Shown here in pieces: positions 1,251-24,199 of a DNA stretch of 24,625 nt. Origin of the DNA: a virus. The stretch's first letter is position 1. Every line of letters begins with the position of its first letter. The notes under the pieces were generated by a model. It searched no databases and was not told the DNA's origin. It was given only the letters and a program-made list of their open reading frames with translations. Location: positions 1 to 24,625 of the IMG/VR virus record IMGVR_UViG_3300046007_008025. One strand, written 5' to 3'. Both the position numbers and the translations under genes were made by a program.

Positions 1251-1739
1251 ATGGCAATATTAGACGCAAACGAAATATTCTTCACAGCCTTTGAACCAAA
1301 GCAGGCTAATAGATTTATCCTGTATATGGATGGGGTACCTAGTTATATAGTTAAAGGAGTAAATGCTGTTACTGTATCACAAGGTGAAGTAACATTAAAC
1401 CATATTAATGTTTACAGAAAAGTTAAAGGTAAAACTACTTGGGGTGATATTCAAATGACATTATTTGATCCAATTACTCCATCTGGAGCTCAAGCTGTAA
1501 TGGAATGGGTACGTTTACATCATGAATCTGTAACAGGTAGAGATGGATACTCTGATTTTTATAAGAAAGATTTAGTATTAGATGTTTTAGGACCTGTAGG
1601 TGATGTAGTTAGTGAATGGATTATTAAAGGCGCATTTATTAAAGAAGCTAATTTTGGTGATTATAACTGGGATACAGCAGATACAGCTGTTAATATTACA
1701 ATGACTGTAGCTATGGATTATTGCGTGTTAAACTTCTAA
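1251..1739 (+). CDS. Tail tube protein (gp19-like)
   Basis: This 162-residue protein is the subunit of the inner tail tube through which DNA passes. It belongs to the T4 gp19 / phage tube family by length, by position just after the sheath gene, and by sequence: an N-terminal ANRFILYMDGVPSYIVKGVN strand pair, a central GDIQMTLFDPITPSGAQAV segment, and a WVRLHHESVTGRDGY segment before the C-terminal strands (GDYNWDTAD...ITMTVAMDYC). The start is the only sensible ATG, 37 nt after the sheath stop. No Shine-Dalgarno is visible; the leader is A-rich. A strong intrinsic terminator follows, so sheath and tube probably form the end of a highly expressed unit. Confidence 0.95.
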   Translation: MAILDANEIFFTAFEPKQANRFILYMDGVPSYIVKGVNAVTVSQGEVTLNHINVYRKVKGKTTWGDIQMTLFDPITPSGAQAVMEWVRLHHESVTGRDGYSDFYKKDLVLDVLGPVGDVVSEWIIKGAFIKEANFGDYNWDTADTAVNITMTVAMDYCVLNF

Positions 1740-2904: not shown

Positions 2905-3639
2905 ATGAGTGAAAATAAATTAAAAATGCCAACAGAAATTGTTGAGCTCCCATCTCAAGGGTTAATATACCCAGAGTCTTCACCTTTATCAAGTGGTAAA
3001 ATTGAAATGAAGTATATGACTGCTAAAGAAGAAGATATATTAACAAATCAAAATTATATTAGTAAAGGTATTGTATTAGATGAATTAGTTAAATCTCTTA
3101 TTGTATCTAATATAAATTATGATGATTTATGTATTGGTGATAAAAATGGCATTTTGATAGCCGCTCGTATTTTAGGTTATGGTAAAGAATATACATTCAT
3201 GTACGGTGGAGAAGAATATACAATTGATTTAACTACTATAGAAAACAAATCTATTGATGCTGATTTATTTAAAAAAGGTACAAATGAATTATCATTTACC
3301 TTACCAGCTACTAATATCTCTATAACTTTTAAATTATTAACTGGGCAAGACGAGAAAAAAATTAAAGCTGAGTTAGAAGGTTTAAAGAAAATTAACAAAA
3401 ATTCATCAGCTGAATTATCTACTCGTTTAAAATACATTATTACATCTATAAATGGTAATAGAGATCAAAAAGATATTAGAGAATTTGTAGACACACAATT
3501 ATTAGCTCGTGACTCCAGAGCGTTGAGGGAGTATATAAAGGAGGTGCAGCCAGACGTTGATCTGACCTTTTTTCCCGATAGGAGCGACGAGAAAGTCTCA
3601 ATTCCAGTTGGACTTAGCTTTTTTTGGCCTGACGCCTGA
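2905..3639 (+). CDS. gp26-like baseplate/tail assembly protein
   Basis: This 244-residue protein has the pattern of the T4 gp26 baseplate protein family: an ELPSQGLIYPESSPLSSGKI start (residues 14-33), then KYMTAKEEDILTNQNYISKG, a VLDELVKSLIV helix, and a β-rich middle domain. In T4 the family acts in baseplate hub assembly. Here it sits two genes upstream of the tape measure, the usual place of tail assembly chaperones in other phages. The last ~45 codons (from about 3508) are far more GC-rich than the rest and use codons such as gag, gtg, ctg and gac that are rare in the neighbours. The gene ends in TGA inside the next ORF, after a T7 run that could allow frameshifting. The family call is fairly firm; the chaperone role is inference. 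Confidence 0.8.
   Translation: MSENKLKMPTEIVELPSQGLIYPESSPLSSGKIEMKYMTAKEEDILTNQNYISKGIVLDELVKSLIVSNINYDDLCIGDKNGILIAARILGYGKEYTFMYGGEEYTIDLTTIENKSIDADLFKKGTNELSFTLPATNISITFKLLTGQDEKKIKAELEGLKKINKNSSAELSTRLKYIITSINGNRDQKDIREFVDTQLLARDSRALREYIKEVQPDVDLTFFPDRSDEKVSIPVGLSFFWPDA
3593..3625 (+). other. Candidate programmed frameshift site with upstream hairpin
   Basis: Seven T (3619-3625), read TTT TTT TGG in the gp26-like frame, sit in the overlap of two ORFs. A +1 shift (or -2) here would move the ribosome from the upstream ORF into the downstream one, which has no ATG. Just upstream, AAGTC (3593-3597) and GACTT (3611-3615) can pair, with CAA/TTG inside and a 6-nt TTCCAG loop. GGACT (3610-3614) can alternatively pair with AGTCC (3643-3647), enclosing the T-run. 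Folding and slippage are inferred by eye only. Confidence 0.4.
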
Positions 3640-3913
3640 TATAGTCCCACAAATAAGAGCTAATTTATTTACTCAAATACATGAAATAGTTTTCCATGGT
3701 CAAGGAGGATATAATTGGGAAACTGTTTATAATATGCCTACTTGGCTTCGTAAATTTACTTTTAATAAACTAAGAGAATATTATGAAAAACAAAACCAAC
3801 ATAATAATGAAGATTTAGCTACTCAATCTCAAAAAATAAAAGAAGGTAAAATAGATTTACCATCTCATTTTAAAGGTAAAATAGATAATAGTAAGAAAAT
3901 AGCCAAGTATTAA
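3608..3913 (+). CDS. Small gp51-like / tail-chaperone-like ORF without ATG start
   Basis: This 101-residue ORF lies directly before the tape measure and overlaps the gp26-like gene by 32 nt. The frame opens after a TGA at 3563-3565 and contains no ATG before about residue 43. A TTG at 3608 is the listed start; CTG at 3629 is another. Alternatively it is translated only as the C-terminal part of a frameshift product with the upstream gene (about 335 residues in all). The protein has a GGYNWETVYNMPTWLRKFTF core (about residues 33-52) followed by a charged helix and a Lys-rich tail. A short W..VY.MP..LR.F helix of this sort recurs in gp51-type and tail-chaperone proteins, but the resemblance is weak. 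The terminator hairpin overlaps its stop codon. Confidence 0.7.
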   Translation: MDLAFFGLTPDIVPQIRANLFTQIHEIVFHGQGGYNWETVYNMPTWLRKFTFNKLREYYEKQNQHNNEDLATQSQKIKEGKIDLPSHFKGKIDNSKKIAKY

Positions 3914-3953: not shown

Positions 3954-6395
3954 ATGGCTTTAACTCCTGAAGAACAAAAGAAACTAAATAATCTCCTTAA
4001 AGAAGGTATTGAATTAGCTAAAAAATTAGGTTTAACCGCTGATGAGGCTAGTTTAAAAAATTTTACAGGTGATTTAGTTCAAGCTGAAAGAATAGTAAAA
4101 TCTTTAAGAGATGAATGGAAAGATTATATTAGTGATATTGCTGGGGCTAGAGAAGGATTTGTTCGTATTCTTGATGAAATTAAAGGTATAAACAGTGGGA
4201 TTAATAGATCTAAAGAAGCTTTTAAAGGATTAACTAGTTTAGCTGCTAAATTGCAAAGCCATGCTGATGGAACTAATAGATTATCTACTAAAGAATTAGA
4301 AAAGCTAAAACAACAAACAAAACAAAGAGAAGAAGATTTAAAATTAGCTGGTAAATTAGCTAAAGATAGAGTAAAAGAATTAGAAGGTAAAGCTACATTA
4401 TCTAAAAAAGAAAAAAAAGAATTAACTGAAGCTAGAATTGCTCATCAAAATATTTCCCAAGAAATAACTAAAAACGCAGGGCATTTAAAACAATTTAATG
4501 AGCAATTAGATCGCAATATTGATGTTCAAAAACAAATTGAAAAATCTTTAGGTGTTACTGGGGCCCTAATGAAAGGGATGTCTAAAATCCCATTCCTAGG
4601 AGACCTACCAGGTATGAGTGACATTTTAGGTAATGTAGAAGAAGATATTAGACAGATTGAAGAAAAAGAAGGAAGAATAGTTAGTAAAAGCGAAGCTATG
4701 AAAATGGCTTTTAAAAAGATGGGTCCGACTTTAAAAGAAGGATTAACAGATCCATTAGTTATAGGAGGTTTTTTATTTAATGAGATGAAAGCTGCTATAT
4801 TAGGAGCTGACAAAGCTACAGGTGAACTAGCTAAAAATACAGACTTAACTTATACTGAAGCACTTCAAGCTAGAGAAGAATTTACAAATATAGCTAATTT
4901 GTCAATGGATAGTGCTATTAACACTAAAGGATTACAAGAGAGTTATAGTGCTATAGCATCATCATTAGGAGCTCAAGCTGATATTAATCAAAAAGATTTA
5001 GAAACCTTTACTAAATTAAGAGAACAAGCTGGATTTACTAATGAAGAATTAGCTGGGATGTATAAAATGTCTTTAGTAACTGGTAAATCTATTGAACAAA
5101 CATCTGAAGAATTTTTAGGAGGTGCTGAAGCTTTAGCTAAACAAAAAGGTTTATCTATCAATGTTAAGCAATTAATGAAAGACTCAGCATCTGTATCAGC
5201 TGATATTAAATTATCATTAGGTGGAAGTGCTGAATCATTAGCTAAAGCTATGGTATCTGCTAAAGCATTAGGTGTTAATCTAGAAAAAGTAGATGATATA
5301 GCTAACTCATTATTACAATTTGAAGACAGCATATCATCTGAATTAGAAGCAGAATTACTAACTGGTAAAGATATCACTCTTGAAAGAGCAAGATTAGCCG
5401 CTTTAAATAATGATTTTGCTACTGTAGCTGAAGAGATAAATAACCAATTAGGAGGATCAGCTGAATTCTCAGCTATGAATCGTCTTCAACAAGAAGCTAT
5501 AGCTAAATCAGTTGGTATGACAAGAGAAGAGTTAGCTAAATCTTTAACAGAACAAGAGGCATTACAAAAAGTAGGTGTTAAAACAGCTGAAGCCGCTAAA
5601 GAAAAATATGATGCCTTAGTAGCTCAATATGGAGTTGAAAAAGCCCAACAAATGTTAGGTGATGAAGCTTTAGCTAGACAATTTAAACAACAGGATAATC
5701 AAGAAAAAGTTAATCAAGCTATTGAAAAAGCTAGAGATTTATTTATAGGACTAGCCCAACCTATATTAGAATTTGTAACTCCTATAGTTGATCTAGTTAC
5801 AACTATACTCCCAGCTGTTAATTTTTTATTATCTCCCTTGATTGAAGGATTTAAACTTATTGGGAATTTAGTTTCTGGGTTTGTTGATGGGTTAAAAAAA
5901 GGACAACCAATTATGGTAGCTATAGCTGCTGGGTTAACAGCTATATTAGCTCCTACTATAATGACAGCTATATTTAGTATTTTTAGTGCTTTTGCTAAAA
6001 TACCATTTGGAGTAGGGATTCCTTTAGCTATCACAGCTGTAGCTGGAATGATAAGTCTAGCTACTAAATCAGCTAATGATGTTAAAAAAATTAAAGATGG
6101 AGCTATTGATTCCAATGGTGGTTTAGTAGTATCTAAACCTGAGGGAGGAATTGTAGCTCAAGGTATTAAAGATGATAATGTTGTATTCACTACTAATGAT
6201 GTTAAATCTGGAGGAGGAACCTCAACTGGAGGAAACACATCAGGCATGATGTCTGAGTTAGTCGCTATTAAAAACTTACTTCAACAAATAGCTTCAACAC
6301 CAGGTAAAGTTGAAATTGATGGAACAGAAGCTGGTAGAGTATTAGCCCCATTAATTAACCAAACTAACCTTCAAACCCAGGTAAAAACCCAATAA
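3954..6395 (+). CDS. Tail tape measure protein
   Basis: This 813-residue protein fits the tape measure, which sets tail length and is thought to pass into the cell ahead of DNA. The first ~220 residues are strongly charged, heptad-like coiled coil with many Lys, Glu and Leu. The middle is Ala/Leu/Glu-rich helix. Residues about 595-705 hold a cluster of hydrophobic segments (for example VAIAAGLTAILAPTIMTAIF) able to cross membranes. A GNTSG-type glycine/serine linker and a short C-terminal helical tail follow. A DGAIDSNGGLVVSKPEGGI stretch near residue 715 is typical of tape measure C-termini. It follows the gp26-like and small ORF pair, the standard gene order. The start ATG is preceded by the late motif and no Shine-Dalgarno. 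At 813 residues it would predict a tail of roughly 120 nm by the usual 1.5 Å per residue rule (inference). Confidence 0.92.
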   Translation: MALTPEEQKKLNNLLKEGIELAKKLGLTADEASLKNFTGDLVQAERIVKSLRDEWKDYISDIAGAREGFVRILDEIKGINSGINRSKEAFKGLTSLAAKLQSHADGTNRLSTKELEKLKQQTKQREEDLKLAGKLAKDRVKELEGKATLSKKEKKELTEARIAHQNISQEITKNAGHLKQFNEQLDRNIDVQKQIEKSLGVTGALMKGMSKIPFLGDLPGMSDILGNVEEDIRQIEEKEGRIVSKSEAMKMAFKKMGPTLKEGLTDPLVIGGFLFNEMKAAILGADKATGELAKNTDLTYTEALQAREEFTNIANLSMDSAINTKGLQESYSAIASSLGAQADINQKDLETFTKLREQAGFTNEELAGMYKMSLVTGKSIEQTSEEFLGGAEALAKQKGLSINVKQLMKDSASVSADIKLSLGGSAESLAKAMVSAKALGVNLEKVDDIANSLLQFEDSISSELEAELLTGKDITLERARLAALNNDFATVAEEINNQLGGSAEFSAMNRLQQEAIAKSVGMTREELAKSLTEQEALQKVGVKTAEAAKEKYDALVAQYGVEKAQQMLGDEALARQFKQQDNQEKVNQAIEKARDLFIGLAQPILEFVTPIVDLVTTILPAVNFLLSPLIEGFKLIGNLVSGFVDGLKKGQPIMVAIAAGLTAILAPTIMTAIFSIFSAFAKIPFGVGIPLAITAVAGMISLATKSANDVKKIKDGAIDSNGGLVVSKPEGGIVAQGIKDDNVVFTTNDVKSGGGTSTGGNTSGMMSELVAIKNLLQQIASTPGKVEIDGTEAGRVLAPLINQTNLQTQVKTQ

Positions 6396-9345: not shown

Positions 9346-12300
9346 ATGCCAAAAAATATTGTAGGGTCTAAGTTTGATGACTATGTCAAAGAACAGATTG
9401 AATATAGACAAAAAGAACTATATAACCTAAAAAAATCTAAATCCTCAGAAACTTTAATATATCAAAATGCTAACACAGCGTTTTTACGATTAACTTCTGG
9501 AGTTGATATAGATGGAGAACAACCTGGAACCTCAGCTAAAAAATATCAATTATTTAATACTAGATTTGACAACCAATTTGCCACAGGTGTAGGATTAGGT
9601 GGGAACACAGCTTATGGTTTTGAATCTAATAGTGGATATGGATTTTCCCCACCCCCAGGTCTGGTTTCAGCAGATGTTAAATCTTTAAATAGAGGATCTT
9701 TAAGAGAAGCTACAATTAAAATACTATGTCATAATATTGATCAATTTAATATTATAGATAAATTATATCTTAGATTAGGATTTTCCATGTTATTAGAGTG
9801 GGGATGGTCCCAATATTTTAATAGCTCACCAAAATTTAAAGGTACATTTCAAACCACATACCATAATGTAGCTACAGACCAATATTTCTTAAAAAGAAAT
9901 AACCAAATAAATATCCTAAACCAAATTCAAGCTGATAGACAAAGTTCTTGTGGTAATTATGATGCTATGTTTGGTTTGGTAAAAAACTATTCCTGGGATT
10001 TACAAAAAGATGGAAGTTATGATATAACTATAAACTTAGTGTCGGTAGGAGATGTTATTGAATCTTTAAAAACTAATGTATCTCATCCTACTAATGCTCC
10101 TCAAACAACAAATGTCCCTCAAGACCAACCACCTTTACAATATAACGCTCAAAAATCTACTTTAAATAAAATATTATGGTGGTTAGCTAGCCAATTAAAA
10201 GCAGAAGATCTATATAATAATGGTAAATATTATTTACAAGGCCCAGAAGTAACAGCTGATTTAATAGCTAATGGAATTGGAGTTAAACCAAATCAAAACA
10301 ATGATGATCTAACCGCTGAAGGTGAAGTTGTTGGTTTTGTGTTCCCTCAATTACTTGGAGTAAAAGAAGGCTCTTCAATCCCAGGTGTGCAAGCTCAATA
10401 TTTTATGAAACTTGGATTTTTACTAAGATGTTTACAAAACTTTTGTTTATTATATGATGAAACACAATCTAATCAAGGATTAATTAATTTAGATTTTGAC
10501 AAAAATTCAAGTTTTTGCTTCACATATGGACGACATGGTAGTTTAGATCCTAGAGTATGCTTGATAGAAGTAAACAAAGATTTATCAGGCACAGTACCAC
10601 CTCCCCCATCTAACTCAGGAGGTAACACATCAGTGGCGACATCAAATGGTCTAGTTATGACTGTTAAGGAATATACTTGGAGAGGAATACATGTTCAAGA
10701 CGGAACTAACCCAATTCCTCCTGACTTTTCCAAAGGAGTAGCACCTATGACTTCAGAAATAACAGCTAAGGGAAGTGCATTTGGTTTTGCATCTGCTAAT
10801 CTAGTCAATGGTTATTATTCTCTTCAACAAGGTAATCCAACTTTTATAAATCTTTATGAAGATATTCAAGATAAAGCAAGTATAGAAGCAGATATACAAA
10901 AATACACCCCACCATCCCCAGGATATATTACTACTGAGACAACTCAACCTGCTACCTCAACTACAGCTAATGTAATAACACCGGTGTATTCAACCTTTTG
11001 GTATGGGATTTCAACACAATATAAAGATTTTGTTGATAAAGTACTTAATAAAAATCCAACCACAAGTACAGGTTTAATAGATATAGGTATTAATAATGAA
11101 GTTATAACAGAAATATTAGAGAATAACCCAACTATTTTTCAAAGAAATTTTAAATACGATGGGGCATTTGGTCTAGCTGATGGTTCAATACATATAAAAG
11201 AATATAAATATAAAACAGTTACATTCACTGATGCTAATGTTGGGTATACTAATAATAATACTTCTCCAACTGGTGAGGGAAATAATTTAGATGTACAAAA
11301 TAATTTATTTGATGATATTAAAGATGGTATACAATTTAAATATGACAATACAAGTCTCACTAAACAATTCATAGGTAGAACATTAAACATGTATATTAAC
11401 ATGGATTATATAGCTAAAACCTTAGAAAATTATATAGATATTAAAACTGGAGCTATATCTGTGTATGATTTTTTAGATAAATTAATGAGTGGGGTACAAC
11501 ATGCTTTAGGTAATATTAATAATTTTAGTGTCTCATATAACCAAGATAATAATTCTTTTAGAATAATTGATAATACATTCATACCTGGATTAGGAAGTAT
11601 CCCAGAAGCAAGTGGTTTATTTGATAACCCGACTAGATTTATAACTCACACCCTAGATAGTACTGAGGGTAGTTTTGTAAGAGATGCCTCTGTAAAAACC
11701 CAATTATCAAATAATTTTGCTACTTCTGTTACAGTTGGAGCTCAAGCTAATGGTAATGTTGTAGGATCTAATTCAACAGCTTTAAGTAAATGGAATACGG
11801 GGCTAACAGATAGGATAATTCATACTAAATCAAATATTAATAATCCTAAAGGAGGATCATCTGATGTGGCCACAAATTATTATTCAAATGTAGGTTTAAT
11901 ACAAAACCTATACTCAGCTATTAATGATGGTAATATAACAGATGAACAAATTGATGGTTCAAAAGATGCAGGTATAGATTTATTTAATTTTGAATTAGGA
12001 GAATATGTTAAAGAAGATATTATTCCAAGTATAGGATTTTTACCTATTAATCTTGAATTAACTATGGATGGCTTAAGTGGAATGAGAATATATGAGTCAT
12101 ACACAGCTGATACTAGGTTACTACCAGAAAAATATCAAAATAAAATTCAATTTATAACAACAGGTATATCTCATAAAATTCAAAACAATGATTGGACTAC
12201 AACAATAACAAGCATATCAGGCCCAAGATATGATGGTAAAACAGTAAAAGATACCCCTACTTTAAAAAGCCATAATTTAGGATGGATTCAACAAGTAGTT

Positions 12301-13059
12301 AAAGATGAATCAAAAGACTGGTTTTCTCAAACAATAAGTAAAGCACAAACATTAAATGGAAAATGTACTAGTGTACGTGGAAAGTTTATACATACTGGAA
12401 AAGAACCTCAATTTAGTGAAAAAAGAACACCTAGAAGTATAATACTACACGTTACTGATGGTCCTCCTTCACAAACCGCCCAGTCTATTGTTGACTATGT
12501 TGGAAGATGTAATGGTTCATTTGAGAGAGGAGGTATACACTATGCTGTGGGTATAGATGGAACTGTAGTCTCAGGAATACCTGAAGACACAGTTAGTATC
12601 CATGGAAATTATTGGAATAAATATGGTATAGGTATAGAAATAGTTAACCCATTTTCTTTATATACAAAAGATAACAAATACTACTTAACTAGTGATTATA
12701 AACATGAGGTTTCATCAAATAATGTAGAAATAACCTCATTTAGTTATGGTGGGTATAATACATGGTACCAATATCCAACAGTACAGATGGAAGGACTAAA
12801 AACTTTATTAACAAGTATAATGTCTAGATACCCAGATATTAAAACAGCATTTAAAGCTTATGATAGAAGAAAAATATACAAAGCATTATGGGGATTTGAT
12901 GAAATACCAGTAGTTGGAAAAAATTATAATAAAAAAGCTTTTGGAAAATATGATGTGTATGGAATATATGGACACGCTACTGGAGGTGGTGACCATGGTG
13001 ACCCAACCCCAGCATCAAATCTTATTAATATGCTTGATAGATTAAGAATAACAATTTGA
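9346..13059 (+). CDS. Baseplate hub protein fused to N-acetylmuramoyl-L-alanine amidase
   Basis: This 1237-residue protein combines two functions. Residues about 110-960 are a β-rich hub-like body: SLNRGSLREATIKILCHN near 114, a LEWGWSQYF segment, a GSYDITINLVSVGDVIESLK strand set, a Pro-rich linker near 250, and a terminal GISHKIQNNDWTTTITSISG unit around 936-955 that recurs in phage hub proteins. Residues about 1010-1237 form an Amidase_2 (PGRP-type) zinc hydrolase that cuts the MurNAc-L-Ala bond of peptidoglycan. Visible elements are RSIILHVTDG with His1035, a HGNYWNKYGIGIEIVN core, and GHATGGGDHGDP with His1210 and Asp1219 as the other expected zinc ligands. It lies 3 nt after the gp53-like gene and ends in TGA. 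It presumably pierces the cell wall during tail contraction. The hub assignment rests on context and partial pattern; the amidase call is strong. Confidence 0.88.
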   Translation: MPKNIVGSKFDDYVKEQIEYRQKELYNLKKSKSSETLIYQNANTAFLRLTSGVDIDGEQPGTSAKKYQLFNTRFDNQFATGVGLGGNTAYGFESNSGYGFSPPPGLVSADVKSLNRGSLREATIKILCHNIDQFNIIDKLYLRLGFSMLLEWGWSQYFNSSPKFKGTFQTTYHNVATDQYFLKRNNQINILNQIQADRQSSCGNYDAMFGLVKNYSWDLQKDGSYDITINLVSVGDVIESLKTNVSHPTNAPQTTNVPQDQPPLQYNAQKSTLNKILWWLASQLKAEDLYNNGKYYLQGPEVTADLIANGIGVKPNQNNDDLTAEGEVVGFVFPQLLGVKEGSSIPGVQAQYFMKLGFLLRCLQNFCLLYDETQSNQGLINLDFDKNSSFCFTYGRHGSLDPRVCLIEVNKDLSGTVPPPPSNSGGNTSVATSNGLVMTVKEYTWRGIHVQDGTNPIPPDFSKGVAPMTSEITAKGSAFGFASANLVNGYYSLQQGNPTFINLYEDIQDKASIEADIQKYTPPSPGYITTETTQPATSTTANVITPVYSTFWYGISTQYKDFVDKVLNKNPTTSTGLIDIGINNEVITEILENNPTIFQRNFKYDGAFGLADGSIHIKEYKYKTVTFTDANVGYTNNNTSPTGEGNNLDVQNNLFDDIKDGIQFKYDNTSLTKQFIGRTLNMYINMDYIAKTLENYIDIKTGAISVYDFLDKLMSGVQHALGNINNFSVSYNQDNNSFRIIDNTFIPGLGSIPEASGLFDNPTRFITHTLDSTEGSFVRDASVKTQLSNNFATSVTVGAQANGNVVGSNSTALSKWNTGLTDRIIHTKSNINNPKGGSSDVATNYYSNVGLIQNLYSAINDGNITDEQIDGSKDAGIDLFNFELGEYVKEDIIPSIGFLPINLELTMDGLSGMRIYESYTADTRLLPEKYQNKIQFITTGISHKIQNNDWTTTITSISGPRYDGKTVKDTPTLKSHNLGWIQQVVKDESKDWFSQTISKAQTLNGKCTSVRGKFIHTGKEPQFSEKRTPRSIILHVTDGPPSQTAQSIVDYVGRCNGSFERGGIHYAVGIDGTVVSGIPEDTVSIHGNYWNKYGIGIEIVNPFSLYTKDNKYYLTSDYKHEVSSNNVEITSFSYGGYNTWYQYPTVQMEGLKTLLTSIMSRYPDIKTAFKAYDRRKIYKALWGFDEIPVVGKNYNKKAFGKYDVYGIYGHATGGGDHGDPTPASNLINMLDRLRITI

Positions 13060-17999: not shown

Positions 18000-19280
18000 A
18001 TGTTTTGGCTTATTGAAACAAAAGAACAATTAAGAGAATTTGTTAATCAAGACTATAAAGAAGTCTTTGTTGAACTAATCCCATACCATAATCTTATTCA
18101 CCCTGTAGCAAATGATGTTTGCGCTGTCTATATAAGGCCAACTTATGATTCTAAAGGTTATATGTTATGTATAGATCATAGTGAAACATTATCTATTGGC
18201 AAAACATATATAGAAAAAATACTTCAACACATAGACACAGTATATGTTAGAGATAAAAAATCATTTTTATATTATTTTCAATTAAATAAAGTCATTGATA
18301 TATCTAGTGTTAAAAGCGTAGATACTCAACTTGAACCTGTATTTGATGTATTCTATCGATTACATCCAAATAAGCAAGATATTAACAAGATAATACCAAT
18401 CTCTAAACATTATGAGACTTGTGAGAATATTTATAATAAGCTTCAACAAACCATTTTGGAGCCAAAACCTGAATATATTGAATTCTATAATAAAGGCGCT
18501 TTAGCATTTTTTGGAATTGAAAAAAATGGTATTAGAATAAATAAAGAAAAATTTTTTAAATATTATGAGCCAAACAATGAAAGTTATTCGATATTTGATG
18601 ATCGAATTTACACTCAATATAATCTCAACACTACAACAAGAAGACCGTCTAATGCGTATAATAGCATTAACTTCGCTGCTTTAAAGAAAGATAACCACTC
18701 AAGATCTAGCTTTATACCACAAAACAATGAATTTCTTGAAATCGATATTTCAGCATACCATCCAACATTGGCGGGACAATTGGTTAATTATGAATTTAAT
18801 AGCCCTGATATTCACGCTGATTTTGCACTACTTTATAATGTAGATTATAAGACAGCTAAAGAATTAACATTTAAACAGTTATATGGAGGTGTCTTTAAAG
18901 AATATCAACATTTAGAATTCTTTCAAAAAGTCCAAACATATATTCAAAAACAATGGGACTTATTTAATAATCAAGGTTATATTGAAACTCCTATATCAAA
19001 GTATAAATTTGAAAAAGATAAATTAGGGGATATGAATCCTCAAAAACTTTTTAATTATACCTTGCAAAATCTAGAAACATCTACTAACATACAGATACTA
19101 CTTAAAATACATAAAGTACTATCAGGCAAAAATACTAAAATTGTTCTTTATACTTATGATTCCTTTTTATTGGATTGGGATGAAGATGAAGTTGAAGAAT
19201 TAGAAACAATAAAAAACATATTTAAAGAATTAAATTTATTAATAAAAATTAACAGAGGGAGGAATTATGACTTTAAGTAA
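18000..19280 (+). CDS. Compact, divergent family A DNA polymerase
   Basis: This 426-residue protein carries the polymerase-A palm motifs in order. Motif A is EIDISAYHPTLAG with catalytic Asp249. A DIHADFA element comes next, followed by motif B as AKELTFKQLYGG with Lys287, Phe291, Tyr295 and Gly296. A GYIETPISKYKF element and a NYTLQNLETSTNIQIL helix (the usual TP-QG-AAD helix) follow, then motif C YTYDSFLLDW with Asp387. Divergences are Tyr at the usual motif B arginine (283) and Asp-Ser in place of Asp-Glu in motif C. The N-terminal ~130 residues resemble a degenerate 3'-5' exonuclease fold (ETKEQLREF, then FVELIPYHN where D-x-E would be expected), so proofreading is probably absent. It begins the replication module behind its own promoter; AAAGG precedes the ATG closely. 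Its 3' end overlaps the next gene by 14 nt. Confidence 0.85.
   Translation: MFWLIETKEQLREFVNQDYKEVFVELIPYHNLIHPVANDVCAVYIRPTYDSKGYMLCIDHSETLSIGKTYIEKILQHIDTVYVRDKKSFLYYFQLNKVIDISSVKSVDTQLEPVFDVFYRLHPNKQDINKIIPISKHYETCENIYNKLQQTILEPKPEYIEFYNKGALAFFGIEKNGIRINKEKFFKYYEPNNESYSIFDDRIYTQYNLNTTTRRPSNAYNSINFAALKKDNHSRSSFIPQNNEFLEIDISAYHPTLAGQLVNYEFNSPDIHADFALLYNVDYKTAKELTFKQLYGGVFKEYQHLEFFQKVQTYIQKQWDLFNNQGYIETPISKYKFEKDKLGDMNPQKLFNYTLQNLETSTNIQILLKIHKVLSGKNTKIVLYTYDSFLLDWDEDEVEELETIKNIFKELNLLIKINRGRNYDFK
19258..19262 (+). promoter_or_regulatory. Shine-Dalgarno-like GGAGG inside the polymerase 3' end
   Basis: GAGGGAGGA (core GGAGG 19258-19262) lies 4 nt before the ATG at 19267. It is one of very few such sites ahead of a start in this window. 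It also encodes Arg-Gly-Arg in the polymerase, so the match may be accidental. Confidence 0.35.
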
Positions 19281-19713
19281 CACACGTCATATGTATGATA
19301 TGGACATCGATGTAATTTTTAAGGATTTGAACAATAAGTTATTTTGCACATTTACGGGTGCTGATGGATTAGAGCCTCTAATCGAAGACATATCTCAATC
19401 GTATACTATTATGTATAACAAAATGTTTGTACTATTTGTTAAAAGTACAAATGAATATGTTGTCACTTATAATGTTGATCAAGGTAACATTAATGATATT
19501 CCTGAAAATACAATCTTAGTTCATCGTAAAAAAGAAACCAATACACTTTATACTATAAACGCTTTAAACGAATTAATTAAAAAATTAAATGGTGGAGTAG
19601 TAGATGTAGAATATAGAGTAAGTTGGCCACATTATAAAAATAGTATATTATTGACTCAACATAATGAGTTAAAACAACTAAACACAAAGGTGTTTAGGAT
19701 CATTGAATTATAA
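19267..19713 (+). CDS. Unrecognised protein overlapping the polymerase gene
   Basis: This is a 148-residue protein of unknown function. It contains an LYTINALNELIKKLNGGVVD helix (about residues 100-119), then RVSWPHYKNSILLTQHNELK and a short final strand. This two-part ending looks like a conserved phage module rather than random sequence. The N-terminal half is β-rich (VIFKDLNNKLFCTFTG, MYNKMFVLFVKSTNEYVVTY). The ATG at 19267 overlaps the polymerase by 14 nt; ATGs at 19291 and 19300 would avoid the overlap and are also plausible. Co-transcription with the polymerase suggests a replication accessory role, which is inference. Confidence 0.75.
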   Translation: MTLSNTRHMYDMDIDVIFKDLNNKLFCTFTGADGLEPLIEDISQSYTIMYNKMFVLFVKSTNEYVVTYNVDQGNINDIPENTILVHRKKETNTLYTINALNELIKKLNGGVVDVEYRVSWPHYKNSILLTQHNELKQLNTKVFRIIEL

Positions 19714-19775
19714 GGTACGTAACGTTAAAGAAAACACTACAATAGAAAGGCATTTTAAAAGCTTGTATTAGCTAG

Positions 19776-19807
19776 TTTGGCCTATAAGAATAAATGTAGT
19801 ATATTAA
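19776..19807 (+). promoter_or_regulatory. Putative early/middle promoter before the ssDNA-binding protein gene
   Basis: TTTGGC (19776-19781), an 18-nt spacer and TATATTAA (19800-19807) precede the ATG at 19835. It matches the site before the polymerase gene except for one extra spacer base. It lies in the largest intergenic gap of the window (121 nt), whose first 60 nt show no terminator or ORF. Confidence 0.5.
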
Positions 19808-19834
19808 ATAGTAACAATTTAAAACCAAATAAAA

Positions 19835-20683
19835 ATGGACATCAATGCGATTAAACAGAGATTGAATTCTCTACAAGCAACCGGAACCAAGAAAGAAAAG
19901 GTTGACTATTCCAAGTACTATTGGAAACCAAAACAAGAAGGTAAGTATCAAATCCGAATTGTACCTTCATCAATTAATAAAGAAAATCCGTTTCAAGAAG
20001 TGTTTGTACACTATGGATTATCTAAATTCCCAACTTATGCTTTAACAAACTGGGGTGAAAAAGATCCAATTGTTGAATTTGCAAAACAACTTCGTCAAAC
20101 AAATGATAAGGAAAATTGGCAACTAGCTAAAAAGTTAGATCCTAAAATGCGAATATTCGCTCCTGTTATTGTTCGAGGTGAAGAAGACAAAGGAGTTCGT
20201 TTGTGGGAATTTGGAAAAGAAATCTATATGCAATTATTAGGTATTGCTGAGGATGAGGATTATGGGGATTTTACTGATATCAATGAAGGTCGTGACTTTA
20301 CAGTTGATGCTAACATTGGTGACATTGGAGGTCGTCAAGGTATTAAATGCTCAATTCGTGTTAAACCTAAAACATCAGTGTTAAGTTCTGACAAATCAGA
20401 AATTAAATCATGGTTAACTGAACAACCTAATGTTTTAGAGTTACAAAAGAAAAATAGTTATGAAGATCTTAAAGATATCTTAAAACGTTTCTTAAACCCA
20501 GAAGAGGAAGAATCTGAGGAAACAGTTACAGTTGAAGATACAAAAGATGAAGATCCAATCTTAGCTAAGGCTGAACAGCCAAAATCTAACTACACACTTC
20601 AAGTAAAACCAAAAGCAACTAAAGCAGATAAGTTTGATGCTTTGTTTGGTGATGATGAAGATAGTGAAGATGCACCGTTTTAA
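19835..20683 (+). CDS. Single-stranded DNA-binding protein (gp32-like)
   Basis: This 282-residue protein has the gp32 layout. A basic N-terminal arm (MDINAIKQRLNSLQATGTKK) probably gives cooperativity. The OB-fold core includes WKPKQEGKYQIRIVPS, MRIFAPVIVRGEEDKGVRLW and FGKEIYMQLLGIAEDEDYGD. A strongly acidic C-terminal tail (from about residue 222, ending DDEDSEDAPF) is expected to contact partner proteins. Unlike T4 gp32 it has only one Cys (in IKCSIRVKP), so the structural zinc site is missing. It protects ssDNA and recruits UvsX and the helicase machinery, whose genes follow at once. It has its own promoter candidate. Confidence 0.92.
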   Translation: MDINAIKQRLNSLQATGTKKEKVDYSKYYWKPKQEGKYQIRIVPSSINKENPFQEVFVHYGLSKFPTYALTNWGEKDPIVEFAKQLRQTNDKENWQLAKKLDPKMRIFAPVIVRGEEDKGVRLWEFGKEIYMQLLGIAEDEDYGDFTDINEGRDFTVDANIGDIGGRQGIKCSIRVKPKTSVLSSDKSEIKSWLTEQPNVLELQKKNSYEDLKDILKRFLNPEEEESEETVTVEDTKDEDPILAKAEQPKSNYTLQVKPKATKADKFDALFGDDEDSEDAPF

Positions 20684-20696
20684 TTAATAACAATTT

Positions 20697-21782
20697 ATGG
20701 CTAAAAAGAAAGAATCTTTAATGACAGCAGTCTCAGCTGAAATGAAATCTAGTTTTAATCTAGATAAATTTAAAGAGAAAAAGCTACTTAATAACCCAGT
20801 TAAGTTCAAAGAACAAAAATGGATCCCATTTTCAGAAGCATTACAAGATTCAACTTCATTACCCGGAGCAGCTATAGGCCATATTAATCTCTTAAGAGGA
20901 CACAGTAATACAGGTAAAACAACAGCTTTACTTGAGCTAGCAATTAATGCCCAGAAAATGGGCATTTTGCCTGTGTTTATTATTACTGAGATGAAATGGT
21001 CTTGGGAACATGCTAAACAAATGGGTTTTCAAGTTGAAGATGTTGTCGATGAAACAACAGGTGAAATTGTAGACTATAGAGGATTTTTCTTATATGTTGA
21101 TAGAAGTACATTAGGTACTATTGAAGACACAGCAGAATTTATAGCCGATTTGTTAGATGAACAGAAGAAAGGTAATTTACCTTATGATTTATGCTTCTTC
21201 TGGGATTCAATTGGTTCTATACCTTGTAAAATGAGTGTTGAAGCAAATAAAAACAATCCAATGTGGAATGCAGGAGCAATGTCACAACAGTTTGGTAATT
21301 TTATTAATCAACGATTCCCATTATCAAGAAAAGAATCATCACCATATACAAATTCTATGGTAGCAATTAATAAGATCTGGATCGCACCAGCTGAAAATAT
21401 ATTTGCTCAACCAAAAATGAAGATGAAAAATGGTGAGACAATGTTTTTAGATGCTTCAATTGTAATTACATTTGGTAATATTACTAATAGCGGTACAAGT
21501 AAATTAAAAGCAACTAAAGATGGTAAGGAAGTAGAATTTGCAGTTCGTACTAAAGTATCAGTAGATAAAAATCACGTTACTGGGTTACAAACTAAAAACA
21601 CAGTTGTAGCTACAGTTCATGGTTTTATTAGTGATGATACTAAAGATGTTAATGAATATAAGAAGCAACACGCTCATGAATGGGTACATATCTTAGGAAG
21701 TCTTGAAGGTATTGGTTTAACTGAAGACAAATCAGAATGGGAAGAAAGTAAAGAGAATATTACATTAATTGACGAAGAATAA
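20697..21782 (+). CDS. uvsX: RecA-like recombinase (UvsX)
   Basis: This 361-residue strand-exchange ATPase catalyses homologous pairing for recombination-dependent replication and repair. The Walker A loop is GHSNTGKT (residues 68-75). The likely catalytic Glu98 lies in FIITEMKWSWEHA. The Walker B strand is LCFFWDSIGSI with Asp170. The DNA-binding loops follow in MWNAGAMSQQFGNFINQ and around NKIWIAPAENIF. The order Walker A, E-M-K, W-DSI-GS, then GAMSQ is the UvsX pattern. It starts 13 nt after the gp32-like gene and is 2 nt from the exonuclease gene, so the three probably form one transcript. No Shine-Dalgarno precedes the ATG. Confidence 0.95.
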   Translation: MAKKKESLMTAVSAEMKSSFNLDKFKEKKLLNNPVKFKEQKWIPFSEALQDSTSLPGAAIGHINLLRGHSNTGKTTALLELAINAQKMGILPVFIITEMKWSWEHAKQMGFQVEDVVDETTGEIVDYRGFFLYVDRSTLGTIEDTAEFIADLLDEQKKGNLPYDLCFFWDSIGSIPCKMSVEANKNNPMWNAGAMSQQFGNFINQRFPLSRKESSPYTNSMVAINKIWIAPAENIFAQPKMKMKNGETMFLDASIVITFGNITNSGTSKLKATKDGKEVEFAVRTKVSVDKNHVTGLQTKNTVVATVHGFISDDTKDVNEYKKQHAHEWVHILGSLEGIGLTEDKSEWEESKENITLIDEE

Positions 21783-21784
21783 AC

Positions 21785-22825
21785 ATGAACAAGAAAGGCT
21801 TACTTGATATGCTGGAAAATATGGATAAACCAGATGGCCCAGCAGCAACATTTAATAAACATAGTAGAGTATTAATTATAGATGGTTTAAATCTATTCTT
21901 ACGTAACTTTGCTGTATTAAACTATGTTAATCAAGATGGAGTTCATGTAGGTGGGTTAGGAGGATTCTTACGCTCATTAGGGTTCTTAATTGCCCAAAAC
22001 AAGCCTACATCTGTTTATATTATATTTGATGGGGTAGGTTCAACTATTAATAGGAAGAACCTACTCCCCGAATACAAATCAGGTCGAAATCTATCAAGAA
22101 TGACTAATCATTCTGCATTTGATGACTTAGAAGAAGAACAAGATTCTAAAGTTAATCAAATATCAAGACTCATTCACTATTTAAGGTGTTTACCCGTCAA
22201 TCTTATATCACTCGATAAGGTTGAGGCGGATGACATAATAGCGCATTTATCCAACTATATGGCGGTTAAATACGATAGCAAATGTGTGATTGTGTCCGCA
22301 GATAAAGACTTCTTACAATTAGTGAACAAAAATATTACTGTTTATAGCCCTATTGTAAAAGAATACTACACACCTGAAACAGTTAAAGAAAAATTTGGCC
22401 TACCAGCTAAAAACTTTATATTGTATAAGACACTTATGGGTGACAACTCAGATAAAATACCTGGATTAAAAGGATTAGGACCTAAAAAGTTATTTAAATT
22501 CTTCCCAGAGTTACAAACAGAAGAGTTGTCCTTAGAATCTTTGTATAATATTTGTGAAGGGAAGTATAAAGAAAACGTTATATACTCGAGGTTGATATTT
22601 GAGTATGAGACGTTACAGAAGCACTACAAGATAATGGATCTAAGTAACCCGTTAGTAGATGAGAATGAGAAGCAGTTAATAGAAGATGTGATTGAAAGTG
22701 AGATAGAGAATACTAAAATAGTAGAGTTTCTAAACATGTATAATGAAGATGGTTTAGGTCACACTCTTAAAAATGTAGACTACTGGATCAGAAATACATT
22801 CACTACATTAAATAGTTTTAAATAA
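21785..22825 (+). CDS. 5'-3' exonuclease / RNase H of the FEN family
   Basis: This 346-residue protein has the full metal-binding acid set of the 5'-nuclease family: Asp33 in LIIDGLNLFLRNF, Asp82 in YIIFDGVGS, Glu147, Asp149 and Asp150 in DKVEADDIIAHL, Asp173 and Asp175 in VSADKDFLQLV, and Asp220 and Asp223 in LMGDNSDKIPG. A GLKGLGPKK helix-hairpin-helix follows (227-235). It removes RNA primers and flaps on the lagging strand, the role of T4 RNase H. The C-terminal ~100 residues are helical and not assigned. The gene starts 2 nt after the uvsX stop. Codons in 22190-22320 are somewhat richer in GC than elsewhere. Confidence 0.93.
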   Translation: MNKKGLLDMLENMDKPDGPAATFNKHSRVLIIDGLNLFLRNFAVLNYVNQDGVHVGGLGGFLRSLGFLIAQNKPTSVYIIFDGVGSTINRKNLLPEYKSGRNLSRMTNHSAFDDLEEEQDSKVNQISRLIHYLRCLPVNLISLDKVEADDIIAHLSNYMAVKYDSKCVIVSADKDFLQLVNKNITVYSPIVKEYYTPETVKEKFGLPAKNFILYKTLMGDNSDKIPGLKGLGPKKLFKFFPELQTEELSLESLYNICEGKYKENVIYSRLIFEYETLQKHYKIMDLSNPLVDENEKQLIEDVIESEIENTKIVEFLNMYNEDGLGHTLKNVDYWIRNTFTTLNSFK

Positions 22826-22834
22826 AAATAAGTT

Positions 22835-24199
22835 ATGACATTAAGCACACTATCGCAGTATGGAATTCATTTCCAGATCAAGGTTTTGTCCTCTTTACTT
22901 ACACGTAAAGAGTTTTTAGTAAACATCCATGACATTATAAGTGAAGAGTACTTTGACAACTCAGCACATAAATGGATTATTTCTGAAATACTTAAGTATT
23001 ATGATAAATACCATACGACACCTAGTATGGATATACTTAAAGTAGAAATGAAGAAAATTGAGAATGAAGTTTTACAATTAGCAATTAAAGAACAACTTCG
23101 GGAAGCTTATACAGCTTCAGAAGATGATTTAGCTTATGTGGAACAAGAGTTTTCTAATTTCTGTAAAAACCAACAATTAAAGAAAGCATTACTAACATCT
23201 GTTGATTTGTTAAAGGCAGGTGATTATGATTCTATTAGGCATTTGGTTGATAATGCTTTAAAAGCAGGTCAAGATAAAAATCTAGGATTAGAATATAATA
23301 AGGATATAGAATCTCGATACAGAGAAGAACATAGAGTTGCTATCCCTACACCTTGGGAATTATTTAACAATCTATTTCAAGGTGGTATTGGACCAGGTGA
23401 TTTTGGTCTAATATTTGGTAACCCAGGAGGAGGTAAATCATGGACATTAATAGCTTTAGGAGCACATGCTGTTAGTTTAGGTTTTAATGTTATACATTAT
23501 ACTCTAGAGTTAGGTGAAGATTATGTTGGAAGAAGATATGACGCTTGTTTTACTGGAGTACCTGTAAATCAAATTATGGATTTTAAAGACAGAGTAGAAT
23601 CAATGGTGACTACACTACCAGGTAATTTAGTTATCAAAGAATACTCACCAGGTAAAGCGTCTATTTCAACAATAGAAGCACATATTCAAAAGTGTATTGA
23701 ACAAGATTTCAAACCAGATTTAGTAATTATTGACTATGTAGATCTTCTTCGATCAAAAAGAACTGGTCGAGAGAAGAAAGAAGAGATAGATGATATTTAT
23801 GTTAGTACAAAAGGTTTAGCACGAGAACTTAAGGTACCTGTTTGGAGTGTATCACAAGTTAATCGTGCTGGAGCTAAAGATGACATTATTGAAGGTGACA
23901 AAGCCGCTGGAAGTTACGACAAAATTATGATTACAGATATTTCTATTTCATTATCACGTAAAAAAGAAGACAAAGTGGCCGGCACTGGAAGATTCCATAT
24001 CATGAAAAATCGTTACGGTGGCGACGGAATGACATACGGCGCCAAGATAGACACATCAACAGGTCGTTTTGAGATATTTGATGATTACGAAGACAACGAG
24101 GAATCATATACACCATCCAAACCAGTTAATGATTTTAGTGACGTGAACGTCCAAGAAAGAGAAACTCTTAAAAAGAAGTTTTTCGAATTACAATCCTAA
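22835..24199 (+). CDS. Replicative DNA helicase (gp41 / DnaB type)
   Basis: This 454-residue hexameric helicase unwinds the fork and recruits primase. The N-terminal ~150 residues are helical, as in DnaB-type N-domains (QIKVLSSLLTRKEFLVNIHD). The RecA-like motor has Walker A GNPGGGKS (195-202), catalytic Glu225 in HYTLELGEDYVGRR, Walker B VIIDYVDLL with Asp300, a sensor Gln341 in SVSQVNRAG, and a probable arginine finger Arg393 in MKNRYGGDGM. Length and motif order match the gp41 family. It follows the exonuclease after 9 nt. No separate primase gene is visible in the window. The C-terminus is acidic and probably flexible. Confidence 0.95.
   Translation: MTLSTLSQYGIHFQIKVLSSLLTRKEFLVNIHDIISEEYFDNSAHKWIISEILKYYDKYHTTPSMDILKVEMKKIENEVLQLAIKEQLREAYTASEDDLAYVEQEFSNFCKNQQLKKALLTSVDLLKAGDYDSIRHLVDNALKAGQDKNLGLEYNKDIESRYREEHRVAIPTPWELFNNLFQGGIGPGDFGLIFGNPGGGKSWTLIALGAHAVSLGFNVIHYTLELGEDYVGRRYDACFTGVPVNQIMDFKDRVESMVTTLPGNLVIKEYSPGKASISTIEAHIQKCIEQDFKPDLVIIDYVDLLRSKRTGREKKEEIDDIYVSTKGLARELKVPVWSVSQVNRAGAKDDIIEGDKAAGSYDKIMITDISISLSRKKEDKVAGTGRFHIMKNRYGGDGMTYGAKIDTSTGRFEIFDDYEDNEESYTPSKPVNDFSDVNVQERETLKKKFFELQS

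Follow-up and report, generated by a model that had tools for sequence, protein, structure and literature searches.

A conserved +1 frameshift site putatively joins the two forms of a tail assembly chaperone in T4-superfamily phages

Results

Genes at the locus

The window (the whole stretch of DNA analysed) is a 24.6-kb viral fragment, and its nearest isolate, at 61% identity, infects Flavobacterium. The features relevant here are as follows.

1251..1739, + strand: gp19-like tail tube protein, upstream in the tail module (PF06841 hit at E 0.0017, which does not reach the curated cut-off)
2905..3639, + strand: gp26-like tail assembly chaperone, short form (TAC-N, 'G'), 244 aa in the 0 frame, stop TGA at 3637-3639
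3608..3610, + strand: TTG, proposed as an alternative start and rejected here (TTG in only 75/147 representatives)
3618..3618, + strand: base -1 of the slip codon, C in the window; T in 0/147 representatives
3619..3621, + strand: inferred slip codon TTT, with P-site tRNA-Phe moving +1 from UUU to UUU
3619..3630, + strand: near-invariant shift-site core TTTTTTTGGCCT, consensus TTT-YTT-TGG-CCT, about 2 bits of information per base
3623..3913, + strand: +1-frame extension as read after the putative slip (gp51-type C-terminal domain, FGLTP..YNMP.WLR), stop TAA at 3911-3913
3954..6395, + strand: large 813-aa protein in the tape-measure position, adjoining the chaperone pair; the gene at the same position in phage immuto is annotated as tail tape measure

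The 0-frame product of the upstream ORF ends in ...GLSFFWPDA*. The downstream ORF, counted from the TTG at 3608 to the TAA at 3911-3913, encodes 101 aa, and the offset of 703 nt between the two starts (3608-2905) places it in the +1 frame. This frame is open from 3566, giving an open overlap of 74 nt with the upstream ORF. Every coordinate given in an earlier note on this DNA (ORFs at 2905-3639 and 3608-3913) was reproduced, including the 32-nt overlap counted from the TTG and the T7 run within it (3619-3625). The downstream ORF has its first ATG at residue 43 (position 3734), in line with the statement that none precedes about that residue. The fusion of roughly 335 residues expected from a +1 slip computes to 240+95 = 335 aa, and a -1 slip does terminate soon, reading TTG GCC TGA.

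The tube-hub-tape gene order is the same in the window as in Flavobacterium phage immuto, and in both the position expected of a G/GT module, between the tail tube and tape measure genes, is met. A 345-aa protein with imperfect repeats (SLDNTGLDN..., GEFGG...NTYLS...) is encoded between the tail tube and gp26 genes at 1812-2849. Further downstream, a 1237-aa baseplate-region protein (9346-13059) carries a C-terminal Amidase_2 domain (peptidoglycan amidase) at residues 1026-1167. T4-type replication genes lie beside the tail module at 18000-24196: gp32-like, RecA/UvsX-like, 5'-3' exonuclease and DnaB-like helicase genes, together with a gene whose 426-aa product matches family A polymerases only weakly.

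Homology of the two domains to T4 gp26 and gp51

The upstream protein had been called gp26-like, and its match to phrog_150 ('baseplate hub', E 6.9e-11) bears this out. The same profile is matched by T4 gp26 (profile positions 14-235 of 282) and by the longer T4 gp51 (13-280). Therefore, gp51 amounts to a gp26-type protein extended at its C-terminus. The AlphaFold model of the 244-aa protein has a pLDDT of 89.8, and its BFVD matches are predicted gp26-type viral proteins, with E values down to 1.7e-18. The annotation of phage Abraxas names T4-type gp26 and gp51 as tape measure assembly chaperones. The PDB holds no significant sequence relative, and a fold search of the PDB gave no significant match; the HK97 tail chaperone 2ob9, only at rank 44 (E 4.7, prob 0.20), was not used as evidence. 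Single-sequence fold prediction of the fusion reached a pLDDT of only 36.

The small downstream ORFs of Synechococcus phage S-SCSM1 and Desulfovibrio phage 7757 match phrog_150 at positions 241-281 and 223-275, respectively. In hhalign, the window extension aligns with the cyanophage gp51 and 7757 ORFs (95.9%, E 5e-9), and the latter align with the C-terminus of T4 gp51 (97.6%, E 3e-12; reversed T4 gp51 control, 0.1%). The fusion aligns end to end with Firmicutes phage fusions (99.9%, E 6e-35) and with -1-frameshift fusions (99.5%), and through these it is linked to T4 gp51 (95%, E 7e-9). When the +1 family is compared with T4 gp51 directly and by itself, the HMM match falls short of significance, and the -1 and Firmicutes members are needed as a bridge. 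Judged by this chain of profile matches, the small ORF encodes the same C-terminal extension as the separate long chaperone of T4, gp51. Membership in the phrog_150 family is met on both counts, namely homology of the N-terminal domain and a gp51-type C-terminal extension on the long form. In the protein alignment of the extension (37 sequences), conservation starts at the first residues, FGL.

T4 gp26 and gp51 thus resemble the window in having a homologous short form and a C-terminal extension. However, the two forms are separate genes in T4, whereas the window family would use one gene and a +1 shift, and T4 gp26 ends in ...TTC TTT GAG, without a slippery run. Searching whole records with phrog_150, we found two gp26-type genes in T4 and one each in immuto, Mel-JY01, RM378, GXN1, LIS04, RAS14, and the 161-kb contig that carries locus L008. 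SP-15 has one clear gp26-type gene and a very weak second match (E 0.03). That match aside, the search revealed no second gene for the long form in the records of the phages with a frameshifted arrangement.

Conservation of the +1 arrangement

Three scans of IMG/VR gave 240 loci, and these loci and isolates were scored for a +1-frame ORF extending beyond 100 nt, with redundancy removed above 90% nucleotide identity. A +1-frame downstream ORF is present in 241 scored loci, of which 151 are non-redundant; two scored records have another frame, and both are -1 relatives. Among isolates, the +1 arrangement occurs in Flavobacterium phage immuto, Microcystis phage Mel-JY01, Rhodothermus phage RM378, Bacillus phage SP-15, Streptococcus phage GXN1, and Listeria phage LIS04. 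IMG/VR queries with RM378 and SP-15 returned only themselves. In one locus (L025), the +1 ORF extends only 79 nt past the 0-frame stop, unlike in the near-identical L022-L024, reflecting either a sequencing error or a broken copy. Recurrence of the frame arrangement in 241 loci with a near-invariant 12-base core is far beyond chance.

The pattern of substitution changes at the junction. Upstream of the slip, constraint is weakest at position 3 of the 0-frame codons, which takes 45-47% of substitutions. Downstream, the weakest constraint is mostly at 0-frame position 1, the wobble position of the +1 frame, with 46-57%. Upstream of the site, the +1 frame shows no constraint and is interrupted by stops; its Gly-Leu codons are constrained already before the 0-frame stop. 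Within the dual-coded stretch, the Pro codon is CCT in 145/147 representatives, as compared with 35% elsewhere. As read from these alignments, selection passes from the 0 frame to the +1 frame precisely at the junction, before the 0-frame stop.

The shift site

Site statistics were computed over 147 representatives. The junction consensus, [C/G] TTT YTT TGG CCT GAC, is almost invariant, and its 12-base core TTTTTTTGGCCT (Y at one place) is nearly so. The first codon is TTT in 143, CTT in 4, and TTC in none, although TTC makes up 22% of Phe codons elsewhere in these genes. The second is TTT in 120, CTT in 25, and CTA in 2. Likewise, Phe-Phe is encoded by TTCTTC in 11/53 cases elsewhere in these genes, compared with 0/116 at the shift site. 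A second Phe-Phe run at 3568-3573 was considered as the slip site and rejected; the same residues read TTC TTC in immuto.

Only codon 1 can re-pair in the +1 frame in all variants, TTT-CTA-TGG included: UUU to UUU or UUC, and CUU to UUU. We accordingly assign the slip to the first Phe codon, an inference from pairing rules without measurement. In TTT-TTT-TGG sequences taken singly, codon 1 cannot be distinguished from codon 2, nor +1 from -2.

The base before the run is C in 104, G in 35, A in 8, and T in 0 of the 147, whereas the codon usage of the residues concerned predicts T 68, A 49, C 22, and G 7; among all scored loci it is T in four. T at this position would create T_TTT_TTT, the -1 heptamer. 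The canonical -1 criterion (X_XXY_YYZ in phase, -1 frame) is not met, the frame being +1 in all 241 family loci.

The UUU_YUU_UGG site has no detectable RNA structure and no A-site stop codon. Folding of the segments +9..+90 and -75..0 in 41 members, in search of an RNA stimulator, gave nothing unusual (mean z about -0.4). The 0-frame stop follows the start of codon 1 by 15 nt (2 representatives), 18 nt (96), or 24 nt (49). In contrast to the prfB type of +1 shift, in which a slow stop in the A site is combined with an upstream Shine-Dalgarno sequence, a stop at 15-24 nt is too far downstream for A-site action. In addition to the Phe-Phe site, SP-15, GXN1, and LIS04 (L085, L086, and L089) have NCC-CGA-TT in common, close ahead of the 0-frame stop; a +1 shift could also take place there (NCC to CCC).

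Relatives with a -1 arrangement

RAS14, LR756511, Desulfovibrio phage 7757, and a cyanophage-like set have the shift at the homologous Phe-Phe motif and the same downstream domain as the window. The -1 relatives have a T_TTT_TTC or T_TTT_TTT heptamer and the -1 frame, whereas the window family has C or G before the run and the +1 frame. Specifically, RAS14 reads T_TTT_TTT, and LR756511 and 7757 read T_TTT_TTC. Nearly all gp26/gp51 pairs of the cyanophage-like set (L266-L345) read T_TTT_TTC with a stop one codon later, and gp51 is in the -1 frame in 77/78. The gp51 ORF of this set has an ATG 14 nt past the stop in 72/80, and frameshifting and separate gp51 initiation may both operate. Synechococcus phage S-SCSM1 (L103, 2661-2720) departs from its set: its gp51 lies in the +1 frame with respect to gp26, and the stop is followed by an ATG belonging to gp51 itself.

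Alternative explanations

The small ORF could be translated separately, by reinitiation or coupling, from the TTG at 3608, the competing explanation in the earlier note, or from another start. The TTG is present in the window, the cyanophage-like gp51 ORFs mostly have the ATG described above, and Cygsa01 has an overlapping TAATG. However, the codon at the position of 3608 is TTG in only 75 of the 147 representatives and is otherwise TGG (35), TCG (19), TAG (9), TTA (5), TGA (2), or TCA (2), a stop codon thus replacing TTG in 11. From this codon set, the TTG appears to be wobble drift of a 0-frame Ile/Val-Gly pair. In 22/147, the open stretch of the +1 frame begins at most 8 nt ahead of the slip codon; a canonical start before the site (GTG at -8) is present in just two of the 22. 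No ATG, GTG, or TTG precedes the 0-frame stop in 34/151 relatives, and L144 and L162 lack all three throughout the ORF. The conserved +1 Gly-Leu codons lying ahead of the 0-frame stop also argue against a separate start. The TTG start is therefore rejected, and separate initiation, very unlikely for the locus, is refuted across the family; a free small product made on the side is not excluded. The earlier note had proposed comparing homologous gene pairs. In that comparison, the relative frame and the T run proved conserved and the start codon did not, which supports its suggestion of a chaperone frameshift of unusual direction on a gp26-like gene.

That note left the direction as +1 or -2. 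A Mu-like -2 slip within the T run, adding one Phe, would reach the same final frame, and TTT-TTT-TGG permits re-pairing on U. Such re-pairing is possible in the TTT-TTT members when these are considered by themselves, but 27/147 read TTT-CTT-TGG, TTT-CTT-TAC, or TTT-CTA-TGG, where no acceptable -2 re-pairing exists and +1 (UUU to UUC) works. The +1 slip fits every site variant; the -2 slip fails the TTT-CTT/CTA subset and is improbable. RNA polymerase slippage on the T7 run, present in most members, would instead yield mRNAs one base shorter or two longer. We give it very little weight, as the run is broken in the TTTCTTTGG and TTTCTATGG members with the frame arrangement unchanged, and a better-slipping run of eight T is avoided (T at base -1 in 0/147, 68 expected). 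Finally, a single-base sequencing error or a decayed pseudogene would explain the frame difference in any one sequence. However, the frame relation is shared by 241 loci that come from separate contigs and isolates, and purifying selection acts on either side; the explanation is thereby refuted and keeps only a negligible probability. Comparison of the genomes thus establishes the change of frame, the slip window, the homology of both domains, and the lack of a conserved start.

Discussion

We consider it highly likely that the locus serves a T4-superfamily phage as its tail assembly chaperone module, producing a short form and, by a +1 slip, a long form. To the extent that sequence alone can tell, this is very probably how the phage and no fewer than 150 distinct relatives come by the longer second chaperone. 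Most ribosomes would finish the short chaperone of 244 aa, and a minority would slip +1 at the T run to give the long G-T form. By analogy with lambda gpG/gpGT (PMC5009743), the short form G would coat the tape measure protein and T would recruit tail tube subunits. The ribosomal nature of the slip, the slipping codon, the efficiency, and the chaperone roles in tape measure and tube binding are inferred, and no protein-level or reporter evidence supports them.

The chaperone shift of most tailed phages is in the direction opposite to +1. Lambda gpG/gpGT resembles the window in having two products with a common N-terminus encoded beside the tape measure gene, but it uses the -1 direction and another slip site (PMC5009743). 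According to a 2016 review, G-T frameshifting is conserved among the long-tailed phages, 'except T4'; the single probable +1 case it lists is a tail gene of the haloarchaeal myovirus HSTV-2 (PMC5009743). Like the shift proposed for the window, those of HSTV-2 and the Listeria phages PSA, A118, and A500 (CCC_UGA) are +1 and lie in structural or tail genes (PMC5009743). In the Listeria phages, the shift is on Pro codons in genes for the capsid and tail shaft, with a stop codon or pseudoknot at the site (PMC5009743), whereas the inferred window site is on a Phe codon and the stop follows at a distance of about five codons or more. Vladimirov, Gautam & Davidson (Virology 2022) dealt with the tail assembly chaperones of T4-like phages; as cited in PMC10885494 and PMC12846349, their work reports that some T4-like phages have separate genes for the short and long forms and that others have poly-T -1 signals.

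The gp26/gp51 chaperones, the separate T4 genes, and the poly-T -1 signals are thus already known, and the conserved +1 direction appears to be new. No conserved +1 shift in the T4 superfamily was found in the literature searched, which excluded most subscription journals. To our knowledge, no +1 site with the sequence UUU_UUU_UGG has been published. We lean, by a narrow preference, towards UUU_YUU_UGG being an undescribed class of bacterial +1 site employed by a large clade of T4-superfamily phages, with -1 and +1 shifts at the same Phe-Phe site across the superfamily, the preceding base (T versus C or G) biasing the direction, and two genes in T4.

Although T4 is the listed exception, its superfamily relatives appear to use a chaperone frameshift, and in the rare +1 direction. 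The site would be a strongly conserved bacterial +1 site without a known stimulator. The finding would also correct the annotation of many genomes, in which the small ORF is hypothetical, started too late (immuto, SP-15), or unannotated (LIS04). The -1 shift, the +1 shift, and the two separate genes form a natural series, which raises the question of how the direction of a shift evolves.
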